Origin: a virus | IMG/VR virus record: IMGVR_UViG_3300042934_000801 | Location: 1-63,304 of that record | DNA: 63,304 nucleotides | Reading direction: 5' to 3' (one strand) | Shown: one piece after another, positions 34,307 through 44,210 of the stretch | How the letters are laid out: each line of letters starts with the position of its first letter | Numbering within the stretch: the stretch's first letter is position 1 | Translations under genes and position numbers: made by a program | Notes under the pieces: model-generated | The model's database searches: none | What the model saw: only the letters and a program-made list of their open reading frames with translations | Told to the model about the DNA's origin: nothing

Positions 34307-34389
34307 GGAGGGTGAGCATCAGGTGATGCAGTCCGGTTGCTAACCGGATGCGGAACAACCACCGTCTGGTTCAAGTCCAGCTCCCTCCG
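34307..34389 (+). tRNA. tRNA-Ser (anticodon GCT)
   Basis: Acceptor GGAGGGT pairs with CCCTCC (one mismatch at the inner pair). D-stem GCATC/GATGC. Anticodon stem TCCGG/CCGGA around TTGCTAA, anticodon at 34339-34341. A 16-base variable arm as expected for serine tRNAs. T-loop TTCAAGT with one weak T-stem pair. CCA is not encoded. Confidence 0.85.
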
Positions 34390-34401
34390 CGAAGTAACCA
34401 T

Positions 34402-34485
34402 GGAAGGTGCGGCTGCGGCCAGCCAGACTGCCTTGAAAGCAGTTATGCGGTAACCATTCCGGGGGATCGACACCTCCACCTTCCG
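34402..34485 (+). tRNA. tRNA-Ser (anticodon TGA)
   Basis: Acceptor GGAAGGT/ACCTTCC is fully paired. Anticodon stem ACTGC/GCAGT around CTTGAAA, anticodon at 34434-34436. A long variable arm is present, as in class II tRNAs. Discriminator G. CCA is not encoded. Confidence 0.88.
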
Positions 34486-34486
34486 C

Positions 34487-34560
34487 GCTCCTGTAGCCCA
34501 ATTGGAAGAGGCACCGGGTTTAGGTTCCGGCCAGTGGGGGTTCGACTCCCTCCAGGAGCA
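34487..34560 (+). tRNA. tRNA with anticodon TAG (nominally Leu), short variable loop
   Basis: Acceptor GCTCCTG/CAGGAGC is perfect. Anticodon stem CCGGG/TCCGG around TTTAGGT puts TAG at 34521-34523. T-arm GGGGG-TTCGACT-CCCTC. Discriminator A fits leucine, but the variable loop is only about 5 bases, whereas bacterial tRNA-Leu has a long arm. The charging identity is therefore uncertain. Confidence 0.75.
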
Positions 34561-34572
34561 CGAGATTTGTTG

Positions 34573-34651
34573 TGCCGGTTGAAGGAATCGAACCTTCGTA
34601 GCCGCAAGGCGCAGGCTTTACAGGCCCGCATGTCTCCCAGGAACAACCGGC
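34573..34651 (-). tRNA. tRNA-Tyr (anticodon GTA)
   Basis: On the minus strand: acceptor GCCGGTT/AACCGGC, anticodon stem CGGGC/GCCTG around CTGTAAA (anticodon is the complement of 34619-34621), an extended variable arm as expected for bacterial tRNA-Tyr, T-arm GAAGG-TTCGATT-CCTTC, discriminator A. Confidence 0.88.
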
Positions 34652-34655
34652 GCGG

Positions 34656-34726
34656 CACGGGTGGAGAGATTCGAACTCTCATCGCACGGTTTTGGAGACC
34701 GGCGAGCTACGCCTGTGCACACCCGC
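34656..34726 (-). tRNA. tRNA-Trp (anticodon CCA)
   Basis: On the minus strand: acceptor GCGGGTG/CACCCGT, anticodon stem CGGT/ACCG around CTCCAAA (anticodon complement of 34693-34695), T-arm GAGAG-TTCGAAT-CTCTC, discriminator G. Length is 71 bases; the D-arm is the least regular part. Confidence 0.85.
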
Positions 34727-34739
34727 ATGGGGTGCTGAG

Positions 34740-34814
34740 TCGGGGTGACAGGATTCGAACCTGCGGCTTCACGGATCCAAACCGTGCACTCTGGCCAAAC
34801 TGAGCTACACCCCG
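34740..34814 (-). tRNA. tRNA-Pro (anticodon TGG)
   Basis: On the minus strand: acceptor CGGGGTG/CACCCCG, anticodon stem CACGG/CCGTG around TTTGGAT (anticodon complement of 34777-34779), T-arm GCAGG-TTCGAAT-CCTGT, discriminator A. First of three leftward tRNAs. Confidence 0.9.
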
Positions 34815-36286: not shown

Positions 36287-38032
36287 GTGGATGCCAATAG
36301 CGAGCTTGCCGACCGCACCGTCGGGGATCTTCCCATCAAGATCGCCCGGGGCTTTGCGCTCCCGGCTGAGGCGGTCACCGAGACCTTCGCCATCCTGGCC
36401 AACCGCGGCGCCGGCAAGTCGGTCACCGCGCACCGCCTCGTCGAGCAGATGTACCGCACCGGCCTTCCGGTCGTGGTCCTGGACGTCAAAGGCGACTGGT
36501 GGGGGATCCGGTCCAGCGCCAGCGGAAAAGGCCCTGGCCTGCCGTTCGTCATCTTCGGCGGCGACCACGCCGACGTCCCGCTCGAGCCCACCGCCGGCGA
36601 GTTGATTGCCGATCTCATCGTCGACGACCGGATACCTGCGGTTCTCGACATGTCGTCGATGAGCAAGACGAAGGCCCGATCGTTCGCCACCGCATTCGCA
36701 GAACGTCTGTACACGCGCAACCGCGATGCCCTGCACGTCGTCATCGAGGAAGCCGATGTGCTTATCCCACAGCGCGCTTCGGCTGACACCGCGCGTCTCC
36801 TCGGCGCGATGGAAGATATCGCGAAGCGCGGACGTAGCCGAGGGCTCGGCTTGACCGTGGTCACCCAGCGCCCGCAGGAAGTGGCCAAGTCTGTCCTCGA
36901 ACTCATGGAAACCGTCATCCTGCTCCGGATGACCGGACCACGCTCCATCAAGGCCGCCCAAGACTGGATCAGCGTCAACGCCGGTGACGACGAGACAGCA
37001 TCTCGGGACGTCGTCGCATCGCTGCCCTCACTGCAGACCGGTGAGGCGTGGGTGTGGAGCCCGGCGTTCCTCCGTCTGCTCAAGCGGGTGAACATCACCA
37101 AGTTCGACACTTTCGATTCTCATGCCACCCCGAAGCCGGGGGAGACCCGCACCATCCCGAAGACCCGCGCCGACATTGACCTCGAGAAGCTCGGGCACGA
37201 GATCGCGGCGACCGTCCAACGGGCAAAAGAGAACGACCCGAAGACTCTTCGCTCGCGCACAGCGGCGCTGCAGGCGCAACTCACACGGACGGAGTCTGAG
37301 CGAGACGTTCTCGTGCGGGACAACGAATCGCTGCGGGCGCGGATCGCCGAACTGCAGGCAGACCGCACACCCGTTGTCCCCCAGGACATCTCCGGGACGA
37401 TCAACGCCGCGGTCAAGCTACTGCAAAAGGTGCTCGACGACTCGAAGAACAGCGATGGCAGGCCGCGGCCCGCAGTCGCTGCAGTGCCGATCGCGCGGAC
37501 ACCACCCACACCGAAAACACGCCCTGCCCCGCAGCAGCAGACCGGCGAGGTGAAATTCCGGGCCGGCGCACAGCGAATGCTCGAGTCCCTGGGCCGCATG
37601 GCTCCGCTGCGACTTACCAAGGCGCAGTGGGGCACTGTCGCCAAGATGAAGCACACCTCCGGAACGTTCTCGACCTACCTCGGCGAGCTACGCCGAGCAG
37701 GGCTCATCGAGGAAGACTCCGTCGGTTTCAGCCTCACCGAACAAGGCTTCGACTACCTCGGCGGCCGACCGGAGCCGATGTCCGGCGAGGAACTCCAACA
37801 GCACTACCTGACGATCCTGCGCGCAGGCGCATCCCGGATGCTGCAGGCCATCATGGACGCCTACCCCTCGGGGCTGGAAAAAGAAGAGATCAGTGCCCAG
37901 ATCGACATAGTGGCCAGCAGCGGCACGTTCTCGACCTACCTCGGGGAACTCCGCCGCAATGGACTGATCGAACAACACGGATGCGAGTTCACAGCGAGCG
38001 ACATCCTGATGCAGGGAGCAGCGGTCGCCTGA
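36287..38032 (+). CDS. HerA/FtsK-like ATPase with duplicated winged-helix tail
   Basis: The product is 581 aa. Walker A NRGAGKS is at residues 39-45, VVVLDVKGDWWG follows at about 62, Walker B LHVVIEEADVL is centred on Glu154-155, and TQRPQEV is the HerA-type sensor motif. A coiled coil (about 295-360) and a P-rich linker lead to two near-identical winged-helix units (GTFSTYLGELRR at about 456 and 544). HerA-family proteins are hexameric DNA pumps used in end resection, conjugation and anti-phage complexes. GTG 36287 is 7 bases after TACCCT, suggesting a leaderless message. The integrase start overlaps its stop. Role unknown. Confidence 0.82.
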   Translation: MDANSELADRTVGDLPIKIARGFALPAEAVTETFAILANRGAGKSVTAHRLVEQMYRTGLPVVVLDVKGDWWGIRSSASGKGPGLPFVIFGGDHADVPLEPTAGELIADLIVDDRIPAVLDMSSMSKTKARSFATAFAERLYTRNRDALHVVIEEADVLIPQRASADTARLLGAMEDIAKRGRSRGLGLTVVTQRPQEVAKSVLELMETVILLRMTGPRSIKAAQDWISVNAGDDETASRDVVASLPSLQTGEAWVWSPAFLRLLKRVNITKFDTFDSHATPKPGETRTIPKTRADIDLEKLGHEIAATVQRAKENDPKTLRSRTAALQAQLTRTESERDVLVRDNESLRARIAELQADRTPVVPQDISGTINAAVKLLQKVLDDSKNSDGRPRPAVAAVPIARTPPTPKTRPAPQQQTGEVKFRAGAQRMLESLGRMAPLRLTKAQWGTVAKMKHTSGTFSTYLGELRRAGLIEEDSVGFSLTEQGFDYLGGRPEPMSGEELQQHYLTILRAGASRMLQAIMDAYPSGLEKEEISAQIDIVASSGTFSTYLGELRRNGLIEQHGCEFTASDILMQGAAVA

Positions 38033-39171
38033 TGGCGTGGATCATCGACCGGCACCGCAAGGACGGCACCCCCTACTGGGCCGTGTGCTGGCGCGAGAGC
38101 GGCCGCAACGGCAAGCAGGAATCCATCACCTGGTACGACCGCGACGACGCCCTGCACTGCAAAGACCTCATCGACAAGCTCGGCCCCGAAAAGGCCCGCG
38201 ACATCATGAAGATCATCACCGAACCCCGGCGCGCGCAGACCGTCGCCGAGTTCCTGACCGCCCACGTCGACCACCTCACCGGCGTCGAACCCGGCACCAC
38301 GAAGCGATACCGCGCCTACATCCGCAACGACCTCGCTGGCATCGGCGACATCCCGCTTCGCGCGCTCACCCGGGAGGACGTCGCACGGTGGGTCAACGCG
38401 ATGAGCCAGACCAGCTCGGCCAAGACCGTGAAGAATAAACGCGACTTTCTGTCTGGCGCGCTCAAGGCCGCAGTGAAGGCCAAGGCCATCCCGGCCAACC
38501 CCGCCGAGGACGTCCGCAACCCGCGCTGGGACCGCCGCGAAATGGTGTTCTTGACCGCCGCAGAGTTCCGGATGCTGCTCGACGAGATCCCCGCCTACTG
38601 GAAGCCCCTGATCGAGTTCCTGGTCGCCTCCGGGGCGCGCTGGTCCGAAGCGACCGCGCTGCGGCCCGCCGACATCGACATCACACATGGCACGGTCCGG
38701 ATCTCGAAGGCGTGGAAGACCGGCAGCGACGACGGCGGATACACCCTCGGTGTCCCGAAGACCCGCAAGAGCGTCCGCACGATCAACGTGCCGGCCAGCG
38801 TGCTGGAGAAGCTCGACCTGACAGGGGAGTGGGTGTTCACCAACTCCGGGCGCGGCCGCGGCCAGAACGCCACCGAGAAGCTCGGCCCCGACCCGAACCC
38901 CGTGCGCATCCACTCGTTCGCACCGAACGTGTGGCGGCCGGCCATCGAGCGCGCCAAGCTCAAGGGGCTGACGAAGTCGCCCCGCATCCACGACCTGCGC
39001 CACACCGCGGCGTCATGGCTGCTGCAGGCCGGGCGGCCGATGCCGTCCGTACAGCAGCACCTCGGGCACGAGTCGATCCAGACCACCGTGGATGTCTATG
39101 GGCACCTGGACCGCTCGAGCGGCAAGGGCAACGCCGACGCGATCGACGCGATGCTCACACCGCTGGACTAG
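38032..39171 (+). CDS. int: Tyrosine integrase
   Basis: The product is 379 aa. Arm-binding and core-binding domains fill residues 1-170 (TVAEFLTAHVDHLTG; SAKTVKNKRDFLSGAL). The catalytic domain shows Arg203 (SGARWSEATAL), His320/Arg323 (HDLRHTAASWLL), His346 (HLGHESIQTT) and Tyr356 (VDVYGHL). The ATG at 38032 shares a base with the ATPase stop; the frame is open further back, but only inside the ATPase gene. attP lies 1.9 kb upstream, on the other side of the ATPase gene. Confidence 0.96.
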   Translation: MAWIIDRHRKDGTPYWAVCWRESGRNGKQESITWYDRDDALHCKDLIDKLGPEKARDIMKIITEPRRAQTVAEFLTAHVDHLTGVEPGTTKRYRAYIRNDLAGIGDIPLRALTREDVARWVNAMSQTSSAKTVKNKRDFLSGALKAAVKAKAIPANPAEDVRNPRWDRREMVFLTAAEFRMLLDEIPAYWKPLIEFLVASGARWSEATALRPADIDITHGTVRISKAWKTGSDDGGYTLGVPKTRKSVRTINVPASVLEKLDLTGEWVFTNSGRGRGQNATEKLGPDPNPVRIHSFAPNVWRPAIERAKLKGLTKSPRIHDLRHTAASWLLQAGRPMPSVQQHLGHESIQTTVDVYGHLDRSSGKGNADAIDAMLTPLD

Positions 39172-39704: not shown

Positions 39705-39934
39705 AGGCGGAGATCGTATTGCCGACTGCTCACCCTGCGCAGCCGGTTCACCGTGGACGCTGCGTAGGCGAGCGCCCTCTCGGTCGCCAGAAGGCGATTC
39801 AGCAGCTGGTAGTACCGAGTCGGCGTCAGGCCCATCGCGCCGATTGCGGACTCTTTGCCACCAGCAGTGGCCCACCACTGCTGCTCAAGGTCAAGGATCG
39901 CGCGCTCCTGATCGGTCAGGGAATCCATAGCCAT
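39701..39934 (-). CDS. DUF3263 family protein
   Basis: The product is 77 aa from the ATG at 39934 with GGAGG 5 bases upstream. DQERAILDLEQQWW, GLTPTRYYQLLNRLL and the basic C-terminus are diagnostic of DUF3263, small helical actinobacterial and actinophage proteins of unknown function, probably DNA-binding. Confidence 0.8.
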   Translation of the reverse strand: MAMDSLTDQERAILDLEQQWWATAGGKESAIGAMGLTPTRYYQLLNRLLATERALAYAASTVNRLRRVSSRQYDLRL

Positions 39935-40359
39935 TGGTCCTCCAGGTGATATTCGAGCTGAGACACCTCGAGCGGGTCGAGAGTGGACATGCGGGTCTGC
40001 AGGGTGGGTTCGTCGACCCAGAGGTGCTCGGCGAGCTCGCATGGGTCTCGCGTCCAGCGCAGCCCGTTGGTGAGCGCAGGGAGCGTGATGAGGCGGCGTG
40101 CGCTGATCTCCTCGACGAGGCGCTCCTCGCGCTCCGCGGCAGCCGGTTCTTCCGGCACTGGGCCGCGCTCGCGGTGCACAAGCTCGTGCGTGAGGGTGCA
40201 GCGCCGCTCGGCCTGGGTCAGTCCGCGCGCCAACCAGATCCGCCGGCCAACCTGCAGCCCCATGACACGGTCCGGGAGCCGGTACCGGCAGGACACATCG
40301 ACGTCATCGTGATGATCGCGAAGCAGCCTCCACGGGTGGAAGAGCGATTCGATGCTCAT
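39916..40359 (-). CDS. ImmA/IrrE-type zinc metallopeptidase
   Basis: The product is 147 aa. HELVH (His58-Glu59-x-x-His62) in CTLTHELVHRERG is the zinc site; R-Y-R-L-P and RIWLARGLTQAERR are typical of phage ImmA-like proteins. In other mobile elements ImmA cleaves the repressor to trigger excision; here it sits in the same leftward operon as the repressor and may act on it or on the HTH antitoxin. Overlaps the DUF3263 gene by 19 bases. Confidence 0.78.
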   Translation of the reverse strand: MSIESLFHPWRLLRDHHDDVDVSCRYRLPDRVMGLQVGRRIWLARGLTQAERRCTLTHELVHRERGPVPEEPAAAEREERLVEEISARRLITLPALTNGLRWTRDPCELAEHLWVDEPTLQTRMSTLDPLEVSQLEYHLEDQWLWIP

Positions 40360-40409: not shown

Positions 40410-40976
40410 TTACGTTGTTGTAACTCCGTCGTCCAAAGACTCATCTTCGGGGTCGGGTCCCCAACCGATCGCTGACTCATTCAGATACATTCGACCGTTG
40501 ACGATGTATAACGGAAATTCTGGCGGAGGCTGCTTCAGCGTGAAACATATGCGCTCTAGTCCGGCCTCTACGTATGGCATCAAGAACGGCAGCACGTACT
40601 CAGTAGCGAAGCTCTGCAGATCTTCTTCGTTGAAAAGTTCGGTGTCGTCGAAGTTAACTACTGCGCCCTCTTCATAGATGGCAATATGCGATTCCAGCCG
40701 TGCGTGCGCTCTTAACCTAATCCCAACCATGGCTTTTGAGGAACGGCCGAGGGAGGGTTGGAGCCGTATGGTGCCTACTGGCGCATTGTCAATACTGTCG
40801 TCTTCGCGCTCATCTTTCACATGGCGCGCAAGGAAGTAGCTAGCCGCGTGGGACATCGACGTTGCCGCTTCCCAAATCTCGTGTGGCTCAGCAGAAGTCC
40901 GCTGCTCAGCAGTGCTTGAGCGTTCTTCAGTTTCTTCCGGCACGGTGCCTTCCTGGCTTGCTGTCGACATGCACAC
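40410..40976 (-). CDS. SecB-like chaperone of a toxin-antitoxin-chaperone module
   Basis: The product is 188 aa (186 from the second ATG at 40970). After an acidic N-terminus, VGIRLRAHARLESHIAIYEE, a TELFNEEDLQSFATEYVLP helix and LMPYVEAGLERICFTL followed by PPPEFPLYIV reproduce the order of SecB-fold proteins and resemble the small chaperone Rv1957 of M. tuberculosis. Its 50-base overlap with the HigA-like gene supports one operon. In TAC systems this chaperone folds and protects the unstable antitoxin. GC is low (about 48% in places). Assignment from pattern memory, no search. Confidence 0.7.
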   Translation of the reverse strand: MCMSTASQEGTVPEETEERSSTAEQRTSAEPHEIWEAATSMSHAASYFLARHVKDEREDDSIDNAPVGTIRLQPSLGRSSKAMVGIRLRAHARLESHIAIYEEGAVVNFDDTELFNEEDLQSFATEYVLPFLMPYVEAGLERICFTLKQPPPEFPLYIVNGRMYLNESAIGWGPDPEDESLDDGVTTT

Positions 40977-41445
40977 TCACGTGGGCGCGATTGTCTCGAA
41001 CTACTTCCTGGATTTGCTTTTTCCAGTCGGTGAAGACGGGAATTGGGCCGGTCATCTCCGACGGGCCCACCAACTCATGCAGCGTTGACGAGTCGACGTA
41101 TTCCCACTTCTGAAAAAGCTCATTTGGACTCGCTGTCTTCAATGTCCGGTGTATCGCGCGGTCGAGATAGACCCAGTGTTCATACCGGGCGCCGATGGAT
41201 GCCGCATAACGGCGGATCGTTGATAGGCGGGGATCCGCGCCCGGGCGCTCGAATTGACTCACGGCTGTCTTATGTCGACCCCAGGCGCGGCCAAGATCTT
41301 CCTGCGTCAGTCCGGCCGCGCGGCGTAAATCAGCGAGTTGGATCAGGAACTGTTCGTCGGCATGGGCCAAATCTGCAGCTAGTCGGGCCTCAACCGAATC
41401 TTCGCCAAGACCGAACTCTTCGGCTAACTCTTCCCAGATGCCCAT
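40927..41445 (-). CDS. HigA-like antitoxin with HTH domain and C-terminal extension
   Basis: The product is 172 aa from the ATG at 41445. Residues about 35-95 are an XRE helix-turn-helix: LADLRRAAGLTQEDLG, TAVSQFERPGADPRLSTIRRYAASIGAR. This pattern is very close to HigA of the M. tuberculosis TAC operon. The extra C-terminal tail (about 100-172) is where chaperone-addiction sequences lie in TAC antitoxins. A palindrome overlaps its start region. The ATG lies 6 bases after TATTCT, so the message may be leaderless. The frame is open to 41493, but earlier starts run through the palindrome. Confidence 0.75.
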   Translation of the reverse strand: MGIWEELAEEFGLGEDSVEARLAADLAHADEQFLIQLADLRRAAGLTQEDLGRAWGRHKTAVSQFERPGADPRLSTIRRYAASIGARYEHWVYLDRAIHRTLKTASPNELFQKWEYVDSSTLHELVGPSEMTGPIPVFTDWKKQIQEVVRDNRAHVSVHVDSKPGRHRAGRN

Positions 41446-41446
41446 A

Positions 41447-41466
41447 AGTAGAGAATAACCTCTACT
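41447..41466. promoter_or_regulatory. Operator-like palindrome at the antitoxin start
   Basis: AGTAGAGaataacCTCTACT, a perfect 7-bp inverted repeat with a 6-base centre, overlaps the end of the toxin gene and the leftward -10 element TATTCT (41452-41457 on the minus strand). A HigA-type protein binding here could control its own promoter. Confidence 0.65.
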
Positions 41467-42037
41467 GGTTGCCGGGGGTGAGACTGTTGCCAAGCTGACG
41501 CCCCGCGCGCCAAGCTGAGAACTCCGATCTAGCCTGCTCGATGTGCTGCCGTTGAATTGCTTGCCAGTCGTCGGAAACGAGAGAAGACGGCTTACGACCG
41601 AAAACCAAGAACAGGATCAACGCCGGTTCGACCAGTGGCGCAGCGAAGTACATTCTGAACTGCCAACCGCGGATGTCCGTGTCACCGTGCCCGTTCACGG
41701 TGACCGGATGGCGAAGCTCTCCAAGCTGACTGTCGTTGCCCTCTAGCGGGAAACACCACTCAGAGTCGCGGTCGCCTTGCAGGCCCGAACCGCGAACGCA
41801 TCCGTTGACTGCGCGCTTTCGCAGGTCGAAGACATCTCGAAACAAGGTGGCAACCAATCTGCGACGGATTCCAATCTGCTTGTCTGTCAACAGTTCTCCG
41901 TCGTCGTCTTCCTCGAACTCCCTGCTAATGGCAGCGACAACTTCCCGTGCCTGTTGCTCATACAGCTGGGTTTCTTCCCATTCAGTTCGACCACCGAACT
42001 GTTGACGCCACGGGTCATAAGTGCCGATTTCACTCAC
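41462..42037 (-). CDS. Putative toxin of the TAC module (RelE/HigB-like C-terminus)
   Basis: The product is 191 aa from GTG 42037. The N-terminal half is charged and helical. The C-terminal part (RGWQFRMYFAAP, then ALILFLVFGRKPSSL and a helix QRQHIEQARSEF) has the strand-strand-helix layout of RelE/HigB toxins, but I cannot place it in a named family. Order toxin, HTH antitoxin, SecB-like chaperone matches Rv1955-Rv1956-Rv1957. Low GC. The start overlaps the lipoprotein stop by 8 bases. Confidence 0.58.
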   Translation of the reverse strand: MSEIGTYDPWRQQFGGRTEWEETQLYEQQAREVVAAISREFEEDDDGELLTDKQIGIRRRLVATLFRDVFDLRKRAVNGCVRGSGLQGDRDSEWCFPLEGNDSQLGELRHPVTVNGHGDTDIRGWQFRMYFAAPLVEPALILFLVFGRKPSSLVSDDWQAIQRQHIEQARSEFSAWRAGRQLGNSLTPGNQ

Positions 42038-42497
42038 TCGGGCCACCGCCGCTCCAATCGCAATCGCCCGACAGTTCGATGAAGCCTTGGACGTTTTCGA
42101 TAGGGAACTGCAGGACGGTCTCGCCGATCGGGGTGCTCCACAGCCCGACGACGTCCTGCTTATTCGCTCCTGCCCATTGCCACGCGTTGCACGCTGCAAC
42201 GTGTGGTGTCTGGTCGGCCGGGCCGACGTAAGTGCCGACCCATACCCCGGGCTGGAGGCCAGGTAGATCGGACGCGGGGTTGTTCACGGCGAATGTCTGC
42301 GAGGCGGCACGGGTCGTGGTCGCGGAGATGACCAACGTCCCAGCGGCGGACACCGGCGGATTAGAACGCGACGGCTGCGCCGGCGCAGCCGGACTCGTCA
42401 CGGTAACCGTTTCGGCGGGGGCCGCGGAGTCGGTCTGCGCGCCGCATCCGACGGTGACGCCGCACAGCGCCAGCGCGGTGATTCCTGTGCGGATCAC
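42030..42497 (-). CDS. Lipoprotein co-transcribed with the repressor
   Basis: The product is 155 aa. GTG 42497 gives VIRTGITALALCGVTVGCG, a lipoprotein signal with cysteine after TVG. A T/S/P-rich linker follows, then a compact domain with two further cysteines (HVAACNAWQW...SGDCDW). It starts in a GTGA overlap with the repressor stop, so it is made in lysogens and placed outside the membrane, where it could block adsorption or DNA entry of related phages. Confidence 0.72.
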   Translation of the reverse strand: MIRTGITALALCGVTVGCGAQTDSAAPAETVTVTSPAAPAQPSRSNPPVSAAGTLVISATTTRAASQTFAVNNPASDLPGLQPGVWVGTYVGPADQTPHVAACNAWQWAGANKQDVVGLWSTPIGETVLQFPIENVQGFIELSGDCDWSGGGPSE

Positions 42498-43981
42498 TCG
42501 TCGCTGCCCGGGTCTTGGGATTCCTCGCCGCCAGCTTCGCCCTGCTCGGACCGCCCTGGCGTGTAGTCGCGCGGTGTGATGCGTGCGGCGGCCGCTAACG
42601 CGCCGGAGTATCGAGTTCCTGTAGTGGCGAGCGTCAGAGACTGCAGATGTGAATCGAGCTCGGCGATCAACCGAGCGGCGTCCGCAGATACCAGCACTTC
42701 TTCGGTGTCCGCAGATACCTGCACATTTTGAAGCCTTTCCCGGGCTCGTCCAAGCGCCGCAGTCAAGGACGACAGCTGGGCAAGTTGCCCGGCCGGTGTA
42801 TCCGCGGCCGGAGTGAGAGATCGGAGGGTTTCTTCCAGCTCCTCCGACACGCCGAGCGACGGATCGAGCTCGTCCATCATCTGAAACAGTTCGCGCAGTT
42901 TCTGCGGTATCCACGGGGGCACTAGACCGTCTGGAAACAGTGCAATTATCGGCTGGACATCACCGCTCCGGCTCGTGGCGTCCCCCCGCTCTAATTGGCC
43001 TGGTGTGCTTCCCTCGGGGGCGGTGCGAGCGGCGATGAGGTGACGTTGGACGGAAGGCTCGTGAGTCGCAGACAGGCCGGACTCGATCCATGCGGCCTTG
43101 TCAAGCCGTAGTCGACGCACCAAGTCGCGTAGTAAATCCCCATGCAGCACTGCAGGTTTGCGGAGCACCACGGTCGGAGCCTTCGCGGCAATGTCTTCCA
43201 GCAATGGGATGAACGTCTCGCTGGTCGTTGCGAAGAAGTCGAATGCCTTGATGGCGGCGTCGATCTGTTGCGGTGTGGCGTGCAGGTCAACCATCTGCAT
43301 GGCGTCCAACGTGTCGACGGTTGCGGCTTCGTAGCGTTCGACGGCGAGATAGAACACAGCGACTGTGGTGTCGACGTCGTCGTCGGGTGTCAGCGATGAC
43401 AGCGTCGTCACAGCGTCGATCAGAGCCATGGTTGTCGCATGCTGCGCTTCGATGACCGCATGGTCGATCGTTGCCGCTTCGAGTTTCGGCAGTACCGCAG
43501 CGTCGAGCTCGAAAACCACGTTCGTCTGCGGGATGGCGAAGTCGATGGACGCGGCAGGCTTGGCATTTCCCAGGTCGGCATCTTTCAAAAGGCCTGCGAC
43601 GGCTTTCTCCGCAACGCTGCCGTGTTCTAACGCATTCTGAACCATCCGCTCTTTTCCTAGCTCGGAGCGACTACGCACCCCTTTCATGCGTCGCTGGACT
43701 TCGGCGAGTAGTTCGTCGTCGGTGAGGGCGTCTGGCCCGCGGTGAATCTCGATGGCTTCCGCTGCTTCAGTGCCGGTGAGGTAGCCAGCGGCGACCAACG
43801 CCTCGACAGGCGGTCTGCCGTAGGCGCGGCTGAATACGACGACCGATTGAGCGCTGGGCTCGTTGTGTCCTTTGGACCACCGGGAGATGACTGTGGTGCC
43901 GATGCCTGAGACGTCGGCAATCTTCTTCTGTTCATCCGTCCCGGCAATCCGAGTCACGTAGTTCCACCACTCATTGGCCAC
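42494..43981 (-). CDS. rep: Immunity repressor (long form)
   Basis: The product is 495 aa from GTG 43981 (ANEWWNYVTRIAGTDEQKK). Residues about 8-65 form the helix-turn-helix (KIADVSGIGTTVISRWSKG) followed by AYGRPPVEALVAAGYL and DDELLAEVQRRM, the usual mycobacteriophage repressor sequence. The remaining 400 residues are helical with no recognised domain, far longer than typical repressors. The frame is open to 44158, but that would cross the operators. It lies divergent from Cro and is first in an eight-gene leftward operon. Confidence 0.82.
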   Translation of the reverse strand: MANEWWNYVTRIAGTDEQKKIADVSGIGTTVISRWSKGHNEPSAQSVVVFSRAYGRPPVEALVAAGYLTGTEAAEAIEIHRGPDALTDDELLAEVQRRMKGVRSRSELGKERMVQNALEHGSVAEKAVAGLLKDADLGNAKPAASIDFAIPQTNVVFELDAAVLPKLEAATIDHAVIEAQHATTMALIDAVTTLSSLTPDDDVDTTVAVFYLAVERYEAATVDTLDAMQMVDLHATPQQIDAAIKAFDFFATTSETFIPLLEDIAAKAPTVVLRKPAVLHGDLLRDLVRRLRLDKAAWIESGLSATHEPSVQRHLIAARTAPEGSTPGQLERGDATSRSGDVQPIIALFPDGLVPPWIPQKLRELFQMMDELDPSLGVSEELEETLRSLTPAADTPAGQLAQLSSLTAALGRARERLQNVQVSADTEEVLVSADAARLIAELDSHLQSLTLATTGTRYSGALAAAARITPRDYTPGRSEQGEAGGEESQDPGSDE

Positions 43982-43993
43982 ACAACCAGCGTA

Positions 43994-44007
43994 TTGCGCC
44001 CACGCAA
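43994..44007. promoter_or_regulatory. Operator 1 (TTGCG-n4-CGCAA)
   Basis: TTGCGcccaCGCAA, a perfect 5-bp inverted repeat 13 bases from the repressor start. Same half-sites and spacing as the other two sites in this divergent gap. Confidence 0.7.
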
Positions 44008-44027
44008 GATTCTGGGCTGCCAAAACG

Positions 44028-44047
44028 CACTTGCGTCCACGCAAGTG
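44028..44047. promoter_or_regulatory. Operator 2 (strongest palindrome)
   Basis: CACTTGCGtccaCGCAAGTG, a perfect 8-bp inverted repeat with a 4-base centre. Longest of three related sites, so probably the highest-affinity repressor or Cro site. Confidence 0.8.
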
Positions 44048-44128
44048 CCCAGCAGGTGGACTTACACGGTTGTCTTTCAGCACTGCATAGGCGCAATCAG
44101 CCACCGTTACCGAACCGTGACCTTTCTT

Positions 44129-44146
44129 GATTGCGCGTATGCAATC
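44129..44146. promoter_or_regulatory. Operator 3, overlapping the probable early promoter
   Basis: GATTGCgcgtatGCAATC contains TTGCG-n4-TGCAA. It covers a possible -35 (TTGCGC, 44131-44136) spaced 17 bases from TACATT (44154-44159) in front of Cro, so repressor bound here would shut off the rightward early promoter. Confidence 0.7.
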
Positions 44147-44210
44147 CCTCCCGTACATTCAATCGCATGGCCGCAAGATTGCAGGCCAGGGGCTTAGAAG
44201 GAGGTGAAGG

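Follow-up and report, generated by a model that had tools for sequence, protein, structure and literature searches.

A putative toxin–antitoxin–chaperone module in the lysogeny region of an actinobacterial phage, with relatives at the immunity locus of Gordonia phages

Three adjacent genes, here called T, H, and C, were analyzed in a temperate actinobacterial phage known from the virus record IMGVR_UViG_3300042934_000801 of IMG/VR. The whole stretch of DNA that was analyzed, referred to below as the window, is 63,304 bases long and makes up this entire record. The data suggest that the three genes form a phage-borne toxin–antitoxin–chaperone (TAC) module, which would be expressed together with the immunity genes in the lysogen and would act as an abortive-infection defense against other phages, a reading to which we assign a probability of about 0.6. 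The initial annotation, made from the sequence alone, had placed three leftward genes in TAC order at positions 40410-42037, and the open reading frames (ORFs) are present as it described:

41462..42037, minus strand: T, putative HigB/RelE-like toxin, 191 amino acids (aa), GTG start (from the ORF list and family alignments)
40927..41445, minus strand: H, putative HigA-like antitoxin and autorepressor, 172 aa, ATG start (from a helix–turn–helix, HTH, match)
40410..40970, minus strand: C, protein with a predicted SecB fold, Rv1957-like, 186 aa, ATG start (from the predicted structure and a chain of profile comparisons)

The window contains, side by side and in the order that a TAC requires, the genes of the putative toxin, putative antitoxin, and SecB-like chaperone. 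T overlaps the preceding lipoprotein-like gene by 8 nucleotides (nt), a gap of 16 nt separates T from H, and H overlaps C by 44 nt; an alternative GTG start of C at 40976 is possible. The block had also been described as AT-richer than its surroundings, and its GC content is 56.2% versus 65.0% for the whole window, with none of 1234 equally long sliding windows being as low, which makes it the most AT-rich block of the window. A second virus contig, whose T is 57% identical, has the same gene order, and complete modules were found on genome contigs of Gordonia liuliyuniae and G. zhenghanii. Because the order is repeated on this virus contig and on the contigs of two Gordonia species, the arrangement appears to be more than chance.

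The SecB-like character of C was judged from its predicted structure and from a chain of profile comparisons. The best of five models of C, with a predicted local distance difference test (pLDDT) score of 63.7, consisted of a short helix, four strands, and a long helix; residues 81-150 scored 73-82, and the first two strands 47-68. A Foldseek search with this model ranked Mycobacterium tuberculosis Rv1957 (5mtw) first (E 9.9e-5), and rows 1-23 contained nothing but SecB proteins and two streptococcal proteins that share this fold and whose function is unknown. The VIA-align comparison gave a Z value of 11.7 for Rv1957 (128 residues, 4.3 A) and 9.7 for Escherichia coli SecB, while the first other fold had a Z of 5.4. 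The initial annotation had named the third protein SecB-like, and this structure prediction, run as the check on that claim, returned Rv1957 as the best match in the Protein Data Bank (PDB).

When used as a single sequence, C matched no family in Pfam, PADLOC, PHROGs, or NCBIfam, and direct searches in phages, plasmids, and IMG/VR gave no match. A profile, A11, was built from the third genes of T and H relatives; five of its 10 members were included by position, and these were the third genes of the phages JuJu, Wrigley, and Agueybana and of loci L020 and L026. The search of 397 genomes in the host order with A11 gave nine matches, one of which (G001) was already in the profile, leaving eight new loci. 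As read by eye, a toxin-like gene and an HTH gene lie upstream of the A11 match in L029, L030, L032, L034, and L036; L033 resembles L032, only an HTH gene is upstream in L035, and neither was recognized in L031. The third gene of L035 matched the SecB family PF02556 above the cut-off (31.5 versus 26 bits), those of L034 and L030 matched it below the cut-off (E 2e-4 and 0.005), and the remaining five, L033 and L032 included, gave no PF02556 match. A joint profile of the eight new third genes, with two long ones cut (A16), had a single match in the PDB up to E 10, which was Rv1957 (E 9.2e-9). The comparison of A11 with A16 gave 97.9% (E 6e-13), and in hhalign comparisons with A16 the window C subfamily of three members gave 95.4% (E 1.8e-8) and window C alone 76.6% (E 2.1e-5), while two unrelated profile comparisons, used as controls, gave 0.1%.

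Some of the data weigh against this assignment. SecB was not among the PDB matches of A1, the first phage profile, and PDB searches with mixed profiles gave neither SecB nor a toxin; a later profile with more phage members placed Rv1957 first with an E of only 0.01. The model of C is of moderate quality, and its TM-scores to SecB chains in Foldseek were 0.32-0.41 by query length, with rmsd values of 5-7 A. Because the predicted structure and the profile chain agree, C is judged SecB-like, and the proposal of an Rv1957-like SecB fold was borne out at the level of prediction. In two of the new loci, the SecB-like protein carries a long extension at its C terminus and reaches a total of 335 and 332 aa (L032:503-1510 and L033:952-1950, both minus strand), and these genes are located behind HTH and toxin-like genes.

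T belongs to no curated family, Pfam included, in agreement with the earlier remark that the toxin is unlike a standard family member. Its relation to HigB was followed through two profiles, A18, made of 16 aligned T proteins (the T of phage BeeGee, annotated only as a 69-aa piece, was excluded), and A17, made of five toxin-like proteins from the loci found with A11. Three of the latter toxins (L029, L030, L036) matched PF05973 (Gp49) above the cut-off, that of L032 was just below it, and that of L034 had no match. Profile A17 found M. tuberculosis HigB1 in the PDB (4.6e-7), and the comparison of A18 with A17 gave 73.8% (E 2.9e-5). When the three are aligned in series (A18 to A17 to HigB1), residues E107, R109, R128, and K149 of T correspond to E66, R68, R77, and K95 of HigB1, the last within about one column. 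These HigB1 residues have been proposed as catalytic or needed for toxicity (PMC9098466; here and below, what is taken from the literature refers to the portions of the sources drawn on). In A18, R128, Y130, and K149 are invariant (16 of 16), E107 is kept in 15 of 16, and R or K is found at position 109 in 15 of 16. The HigB1 positions compared were E66, R68, R77, K95, and K99, with K58, N73, and Q98 left out. About 90 N-terminal residues of T lie outside the stretch that aligns with HigB.

Several observations argue against this relationship. K99 of HigB1, a residue required for toxicity, is not matched at the ungapped position of T, which is L153. The window T together with its nearest relative alone gave 0.4%, which is no match, against the HigB profile, and A17 reached the T proteins of phages Azula and Suerte with E values of only 0.09 and 0.17. 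The search of the PDB with the 16-member A18 found no toxin, and the model of T was poor (pLDDT 53.7), with no structural match at E<=0.001, and was given no weight. The RelE-like C terminus proposed earlier was thus recovered at the family level, while the window pair alone, the PDB profile search, and the T model did not reproduce it. T is probably a divergent HigB-like toxin, a likeness that is seen for the family as a whole. In locus L019 (minus strand), the T gene at about 1266-1854 is split over two reading frames; the toxin may be broken there, next to H and C frames that are open.

H matched PF13560 (HTH_31) above the cut-off (32.2 versus 27 bits) over residues 35-82, positions that were converted from a longer 188-aa ORF to the 172-aa protein. 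The conserved region, up to residue 95, is followed by a C-terminal extension of about 77 residues, so that the HTH and the C-terminal extension of the earlier description were both found. PADLOC models of RmrA matched only the HTH part of H, and an identity with RosmerTA was rejected. The tail of H is a candidate chaperone-addiction region, as it fits the tails of TAC antitoxins. The chaperone-addiction (ChAD) tails of TAC antitoxins share no significant sequence (PMC5105189), and as a consequence the dependence of H on C is unproven, which counts against the proposed module. Two further features are located between T and H:

41447..41466, minus strand: operator-like palindrome AGTAGAGgttattCTCTACT, directly before the start of H (from sequence and conservation)
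41452..41457, minus strand: TATTCT, a -10-like box (TAnnnT) within the palindrome, 6 nt before the H ATG (from the sequence)

The site AGTAGAGgttattCTCTACT is the sole one in the window at up to 3 mismatches, with 0 expected, and as a palindrome it was reported on both strands. Of the 17 H genes examined, 12 have an 18-bp palindrome with the same core, centered 10-12 nt upstream of the start codon, and in Wrigley it is perfect over 20 bp. Between subfamilies, the arm positions vary on both sides (GTAGAGG...CTCTAC, GTTGCGG...CTCAAC). The 12 sites were turned into a weight matrix, which found one strong place each (24.7 bits or more) in 13 of the 24 sequences scanned; it re-finds its own 12 training sites, and L022 is the only held-out find. 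Weaker matches (11-15 bits) were seen in the window, L005, L011, and L022. Seven of the 12 palindromes, including that of the window, keep only 6-7 of 9 pairs, and the palindrome score was reached by 3-7% of the shuffled sequences for six loci and by 35% for L019. It is thus conservation and position that carry the operator argument. The common palindrome is absent before H in Agueybana, Ecliptus, Suerte, Azula, and Juicebox, and the matrix scan did not find it in L023-L025, L029, L030, and L036. Suerte and Azula (L037 and L038), which lack it, share another inverted repeat, GTGTTGCA-5 nt-TGCAACAC, which lies in the intergenic region of T and H immediately past the T stop.

A TAnnnT box is located 5-7 nt upstream of the start codon in all 12 palindrome-bearing loci checked. 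Leaderless promoters occur in mycobacteria, and M. tuberculosis HigA1 binds a palindrome at its own promoter. The box could be a leaderless -10 box within the operator of H, and would then be a candidate promoter for H and C, with H as a putative autorepressor.

The recurrence of the module was examined in 11 different phages, nine of them from 27 phage records matched by H, which are partly duplicates, and two from matches of T. In eight of the 11, the Gordonia phages Wrigley, JuJu, BeeGee, Agueybana, Ecliptus, Suerte, Azula, and Blueberry, the T, H, and third genes lie between the repressor position and the integrase, and two small genes follow the module. The annotation of the first of these is peptidase for Wrigley, Agueybana, Suerte, and Azula and DNA-binding for the other four; Agueybana has two extra genes between the repressor and T, and BeeGee and Blueberry have a gene labeled hypothetical at the repressor position. 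The modules of these eight phages share with that of the window the gene order and the place in the immunity locus, and differ from it in that no lipoprotein-like gene is annotated between repressor and T. The window T is 27.8% identical to that of Wrigley and 29.5% to that of JuJu over the matched part. In the phage annotations T is hypothetical, H is an HTH protein, hypothetical, or (Blueberry) an immunity repressor, and C is hypothetical. Juicebox has T, H, and a third gene in a different setting, with the third gene unsupported (A11 E 0.82), and the examined records of Pupper and Skog contained no T-H-C module.

Held-out profile tests, run with Z set to 200, supported the third genes of Suerte (1.7e-11 with A11, 8e-29 with A16), Ecliptus (5.6e-11 and 0.004), Azula (6.6e-11 and 1e-33), and BeeGee (1.3e-4 and 0.003), and the T genes of Suerte and Azula matched A18 at 6e-25 and 3e-22. 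The proteins of Blueberry (KU998236, L040) genes 42, 41, and 40 are identical to those of Azula genes 43, 42, and 41, so that Blueberry gene 41, annotated as an immunity repressor, encodes the same protein as the Azula HTH gene 42, the antitoxin homologue. Blueberry gene 43, annotated as hypothetical, occupies the place of Azula gene 44, which is called the immunity repressor.

The T-H-C block had no near DNA match in phages, and a direct search of genome contigs with T found nothing. Among the profile searches of viral contigs, A13 gave no match, and A3, A5, and A12 found only the contig already known. T was found in 11 of 401 genomes of the family of the Gordonia species. In six of these T loci, H comes next, followed by a gene recognized as SecB-like from profile membership or by eye; in one (L021), the SecB-like gene behind H is weakly supported (8e-5 with A11, only 0.009 with A16), and in four a DUF6941 gene stands behind H. 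In the phylum, T was present in three of 396 genomes, two of them already in the profile, which suggests that the T branch is narrow. The four genes found in place of the SecB-like gene are the following:

L023:543-965, minus strand: DUF6941, 34.0 bits versus the cut-off of 27
L024:2269-2688, plus strand: DUF6941, 35.9 bits versus the cut-off of 27
L025:490-909, minus strand: DUF6941, 35.9 bits versus the cut-off of 27
L022:478-1017, minus strand: DUF6941-like, 21.6 bits, below the cut-off of 27

L022 retains the palindrome before H despite its DUF6941-like third gene. DUF6941 was rejected as a general toxin–antitoxin (TA) partner, as its 21 loci (in 20 of 298 genomes) had no same-strand match to T, the HigB set, or H in flanks of up to 1.5 kb, and its pairing with T and H was seen only in loci found via T. 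Neither the C protein of L036 nor the DUF6941 protein of L023 had a match in phages, and no paper naming DUF6941 was found. In L036 (minus strand), a Gp49-type toxin gene (2371-2721), an HTH gene, and a SecB-like third gene (1453-1902) are followed by ORFs that resemble, by eye, the metallopeptidase and DUF3263 genes of the window. Because this Gp49-type module precedes metallopeptidase- and DUF3263-like ORFs, the slot may accept different TAC types. A further, speculative idea, which we regard as doubtful, is that a TA core carries exchangeable third proteins as infection sensors and that the slot behind the immunity repressor is the place of exchange. The sensor would be SecB-like in the phages and about half of the chromosomal copies, and DUF6941 in the others, in one case behind the same operator. 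If this were true, an exchange of the third gene would shift the sensing to other infecting phages.

In its terminase region, the window shows 77-79% identity with prophages of M. abscessus; in other places it has matches of 71-76% to phages of Mycobacterium and Gordonia. Because of these resemblances, the host of the phage is probably in the Mycobacterium/Gordonia group. The leftward lysogeny region contains, in this order, a repressor-like HTH gene, a lipoprotein-like gene, T, H, C, a metallopeptidase-like gene, and a DUF3263 gene:

42494..44158, minus strand: repressor-like HTH gene heading the operon (PHROG match, 2.4e-35)
42030..42497, minus strand: lipoprotein-like gene between the repressor and T, overlapping both (N-terminal stretch, by eye)
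39916..40359, minus strand: metallopeptidase-like gene following C (phrog_87, 7.7e-19)

The PHROG matches of the repressor-like ORF begin at about residue 61, and its true start is uncertain. The lipoprotein-like gene matched no family in a Pfam search; located in the lysogeny operon between repressor and T, it encodes, as judged by eye, a candidate superinfection-exclusion protein. The integrase is on the opposite strand, within the ORF 37627-39171, and directly before it, at 36287-38032 (plus strand), is a HerA/DUF87-type ATPase with winged-helix-like matches at its C-terminal end. A row of six tRNA genes, three per strand, is located at 34307-34814.

The transcription units, toxicity, neutralization, addiction of H to C, titration trigger, and defense are what we infer for the module from these data. 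T would be a divergent HigB-type ribosome-associated mRNA endonuclease, which H would neutralize while repressing its own promoter, and C would bind the C-terminal tail of H, keeping it folded and shielded from proteolysis. T would be transcribed from the upstream repressor operon, and H and C additionally from their own autorepressed leaderless promoter, so that antitoxin and chaperone could be kept in excess. Upon infection by a second phage, its abundant or unfolded proteins would occupy C, H would be degraded, and the freed T would stop translation before progeny are made. The chaperone-titration trigger is borrowed from CmdTAC and MqsRAC of E. coli, which provide precedents. In CmdTAC, the antitoxin loses its place on the chaperone to the capsid protein of T4 and is broken down by ClpP (PMC11618068), and MqsRAC is a precedent for chaperone-based anti-phage defense with a model of infection-triggered chaperone loss (PMC9519451). 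The published work on these two systems makes a defense role plausible by analogy. What speaks against it is that a capsid-sensing TAC in a prophage might be triggered by the prophage's own induction.

The strongest alternative, still an unlikely one, is that the same TAC serves mainly in prophage maintenance, where upon prophage loss H and C would be lost first and T would poison the cell. The location of the module in a lysogeny operon near the integrase in phages is consistent with this role, as is the instability of TAC antitoxins without their chaperone (PMC5105189), but full modules are also found on large Gordonia genome contigs, where prophage addiction offers no reason for their presence unless they are remnants. 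It is much less probable that H is primarily a second lysogeny regulator, tuned by T and C without any killing. Although H has its own operator-like site and its homologue Blueberry gp41 is annotated as an immunity repressor, a search allowing up to 3 mismatches finds this site at one place in the 63 kb, in front of H itself, so that H looks like an autoregulator; moreover, T appears to retain HigB-like catalytic positions, and a separate repressor-like gene heads the operon. The least probable is that C is a general SecB-like chaperone for other proteins with incidental neighbors, because even though SecB chaperones can be generalists (PMC4257090, PMC5105189) and Wrigley gp46 was described without a TA context, with SecB mentioned only as an export protein in the portions of the genome note drawn on (PMC9670969), the examined loci have their SecB-like gene behind an HTH gene, L031 being the exception with no recognized HTH gene, and a search at E<=0.001 in 101 genomes of the order found canonical SecB (PF02556) in none of them. 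A control search with PF02556 found it in four of 14 genomes, E. coli included, and the absence from the 101 genomes gives no sign of a host SecB pathway for C.

The preferred reading, a TAC that defends the lysogen, places the module beside several known systems. It shares with HigB1-HigA1-Rv1957 of M. tuberculosis (Rv1955-Rv1956-Rv1957) the order of toxin, HTH antitoxin with a tail, and SecB-like chaperone, the predicted fold of C, and, by the profile alignments, likely T counterparts of HigB1 E66, R68, R77, and K95, the last within about one column. It differs in that T is longer and strongly diverged, is in no curated family, and has not kept HigB1 K99, that the module is in a phage lysogeny operon, and that the operator-like site is between the toxin and antitoxin genes. 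CmdTAC and MqsRAC likewise have three components with a SecB-like chaperone (PMC11618068, PMC9519451), but their toxins are an ADP-ribosyltransferase and MqsR, and their defense was demonstrated, whereas the window module is known from sequence. With gp43/gp44 of phage CarolAnn and with lambda RexAB, the likeness is in the position of defense genes directly after the immunity repressor (PMC6426606); identity with either was rejected, as the proteins are unrelated, those of CarolAnn being a membrane protein and a DUF4747-like protein.

The same study reported reduced plating on a Blueberry lysogen for nine of 34 non-CV phages (our count from its Table 1), and strong within-cluster plating reductions were thought to be repressor-mediated (PMC6426606). 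The genes studied there were those of CarolAnn; Blueberry 36 was suggested as possibly involved in defense, and the expressed genes of Blueberry were stated as not co-expressed with its repressor (PMC6426606). A 2014 review noted secB-like genes in certain phages and plasmids (PMC4257090). The 2022 Wrigley genome note described gp46 as SecB-like by predicted structure and stated that gp46 and gp48 have no homologues in PhagesDB, and in the portions drawn on the word toxin is absent (PMC9670969). As an independent description, it slightly strengthens the SecB-like assignment of C. A search of open-licence PubMed Central found no paper describing these genes as a toxin–antitoxin–chaperone module. 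The suggestion that the system may be new thus holds in part: the TAC as a kind, within which the module falls, and the SecB resemblance of Wrigley gp46 were already known, while the divergent toxin branch, the position in the phage immunity locus, the operator-like site before the antitoxin, and the replaceable third gene are new.

Chaperone-controlled toxin systems have been characterized mainly in bacterial genomes, and the locus described here, together with its relatives, puts a TAC-like module in the immunity region of isolated Gordonia phages. The recurring operator-like site and the DUF6941 swap are further handles on the module family. The Gordonia phage modules are candidates for shielding the host cell from other phages, and Blueberry both carries the module and has a published lysogen that blocks several phages, the cause of which was not settled in the portions of the study drawn on (PMC6426606).

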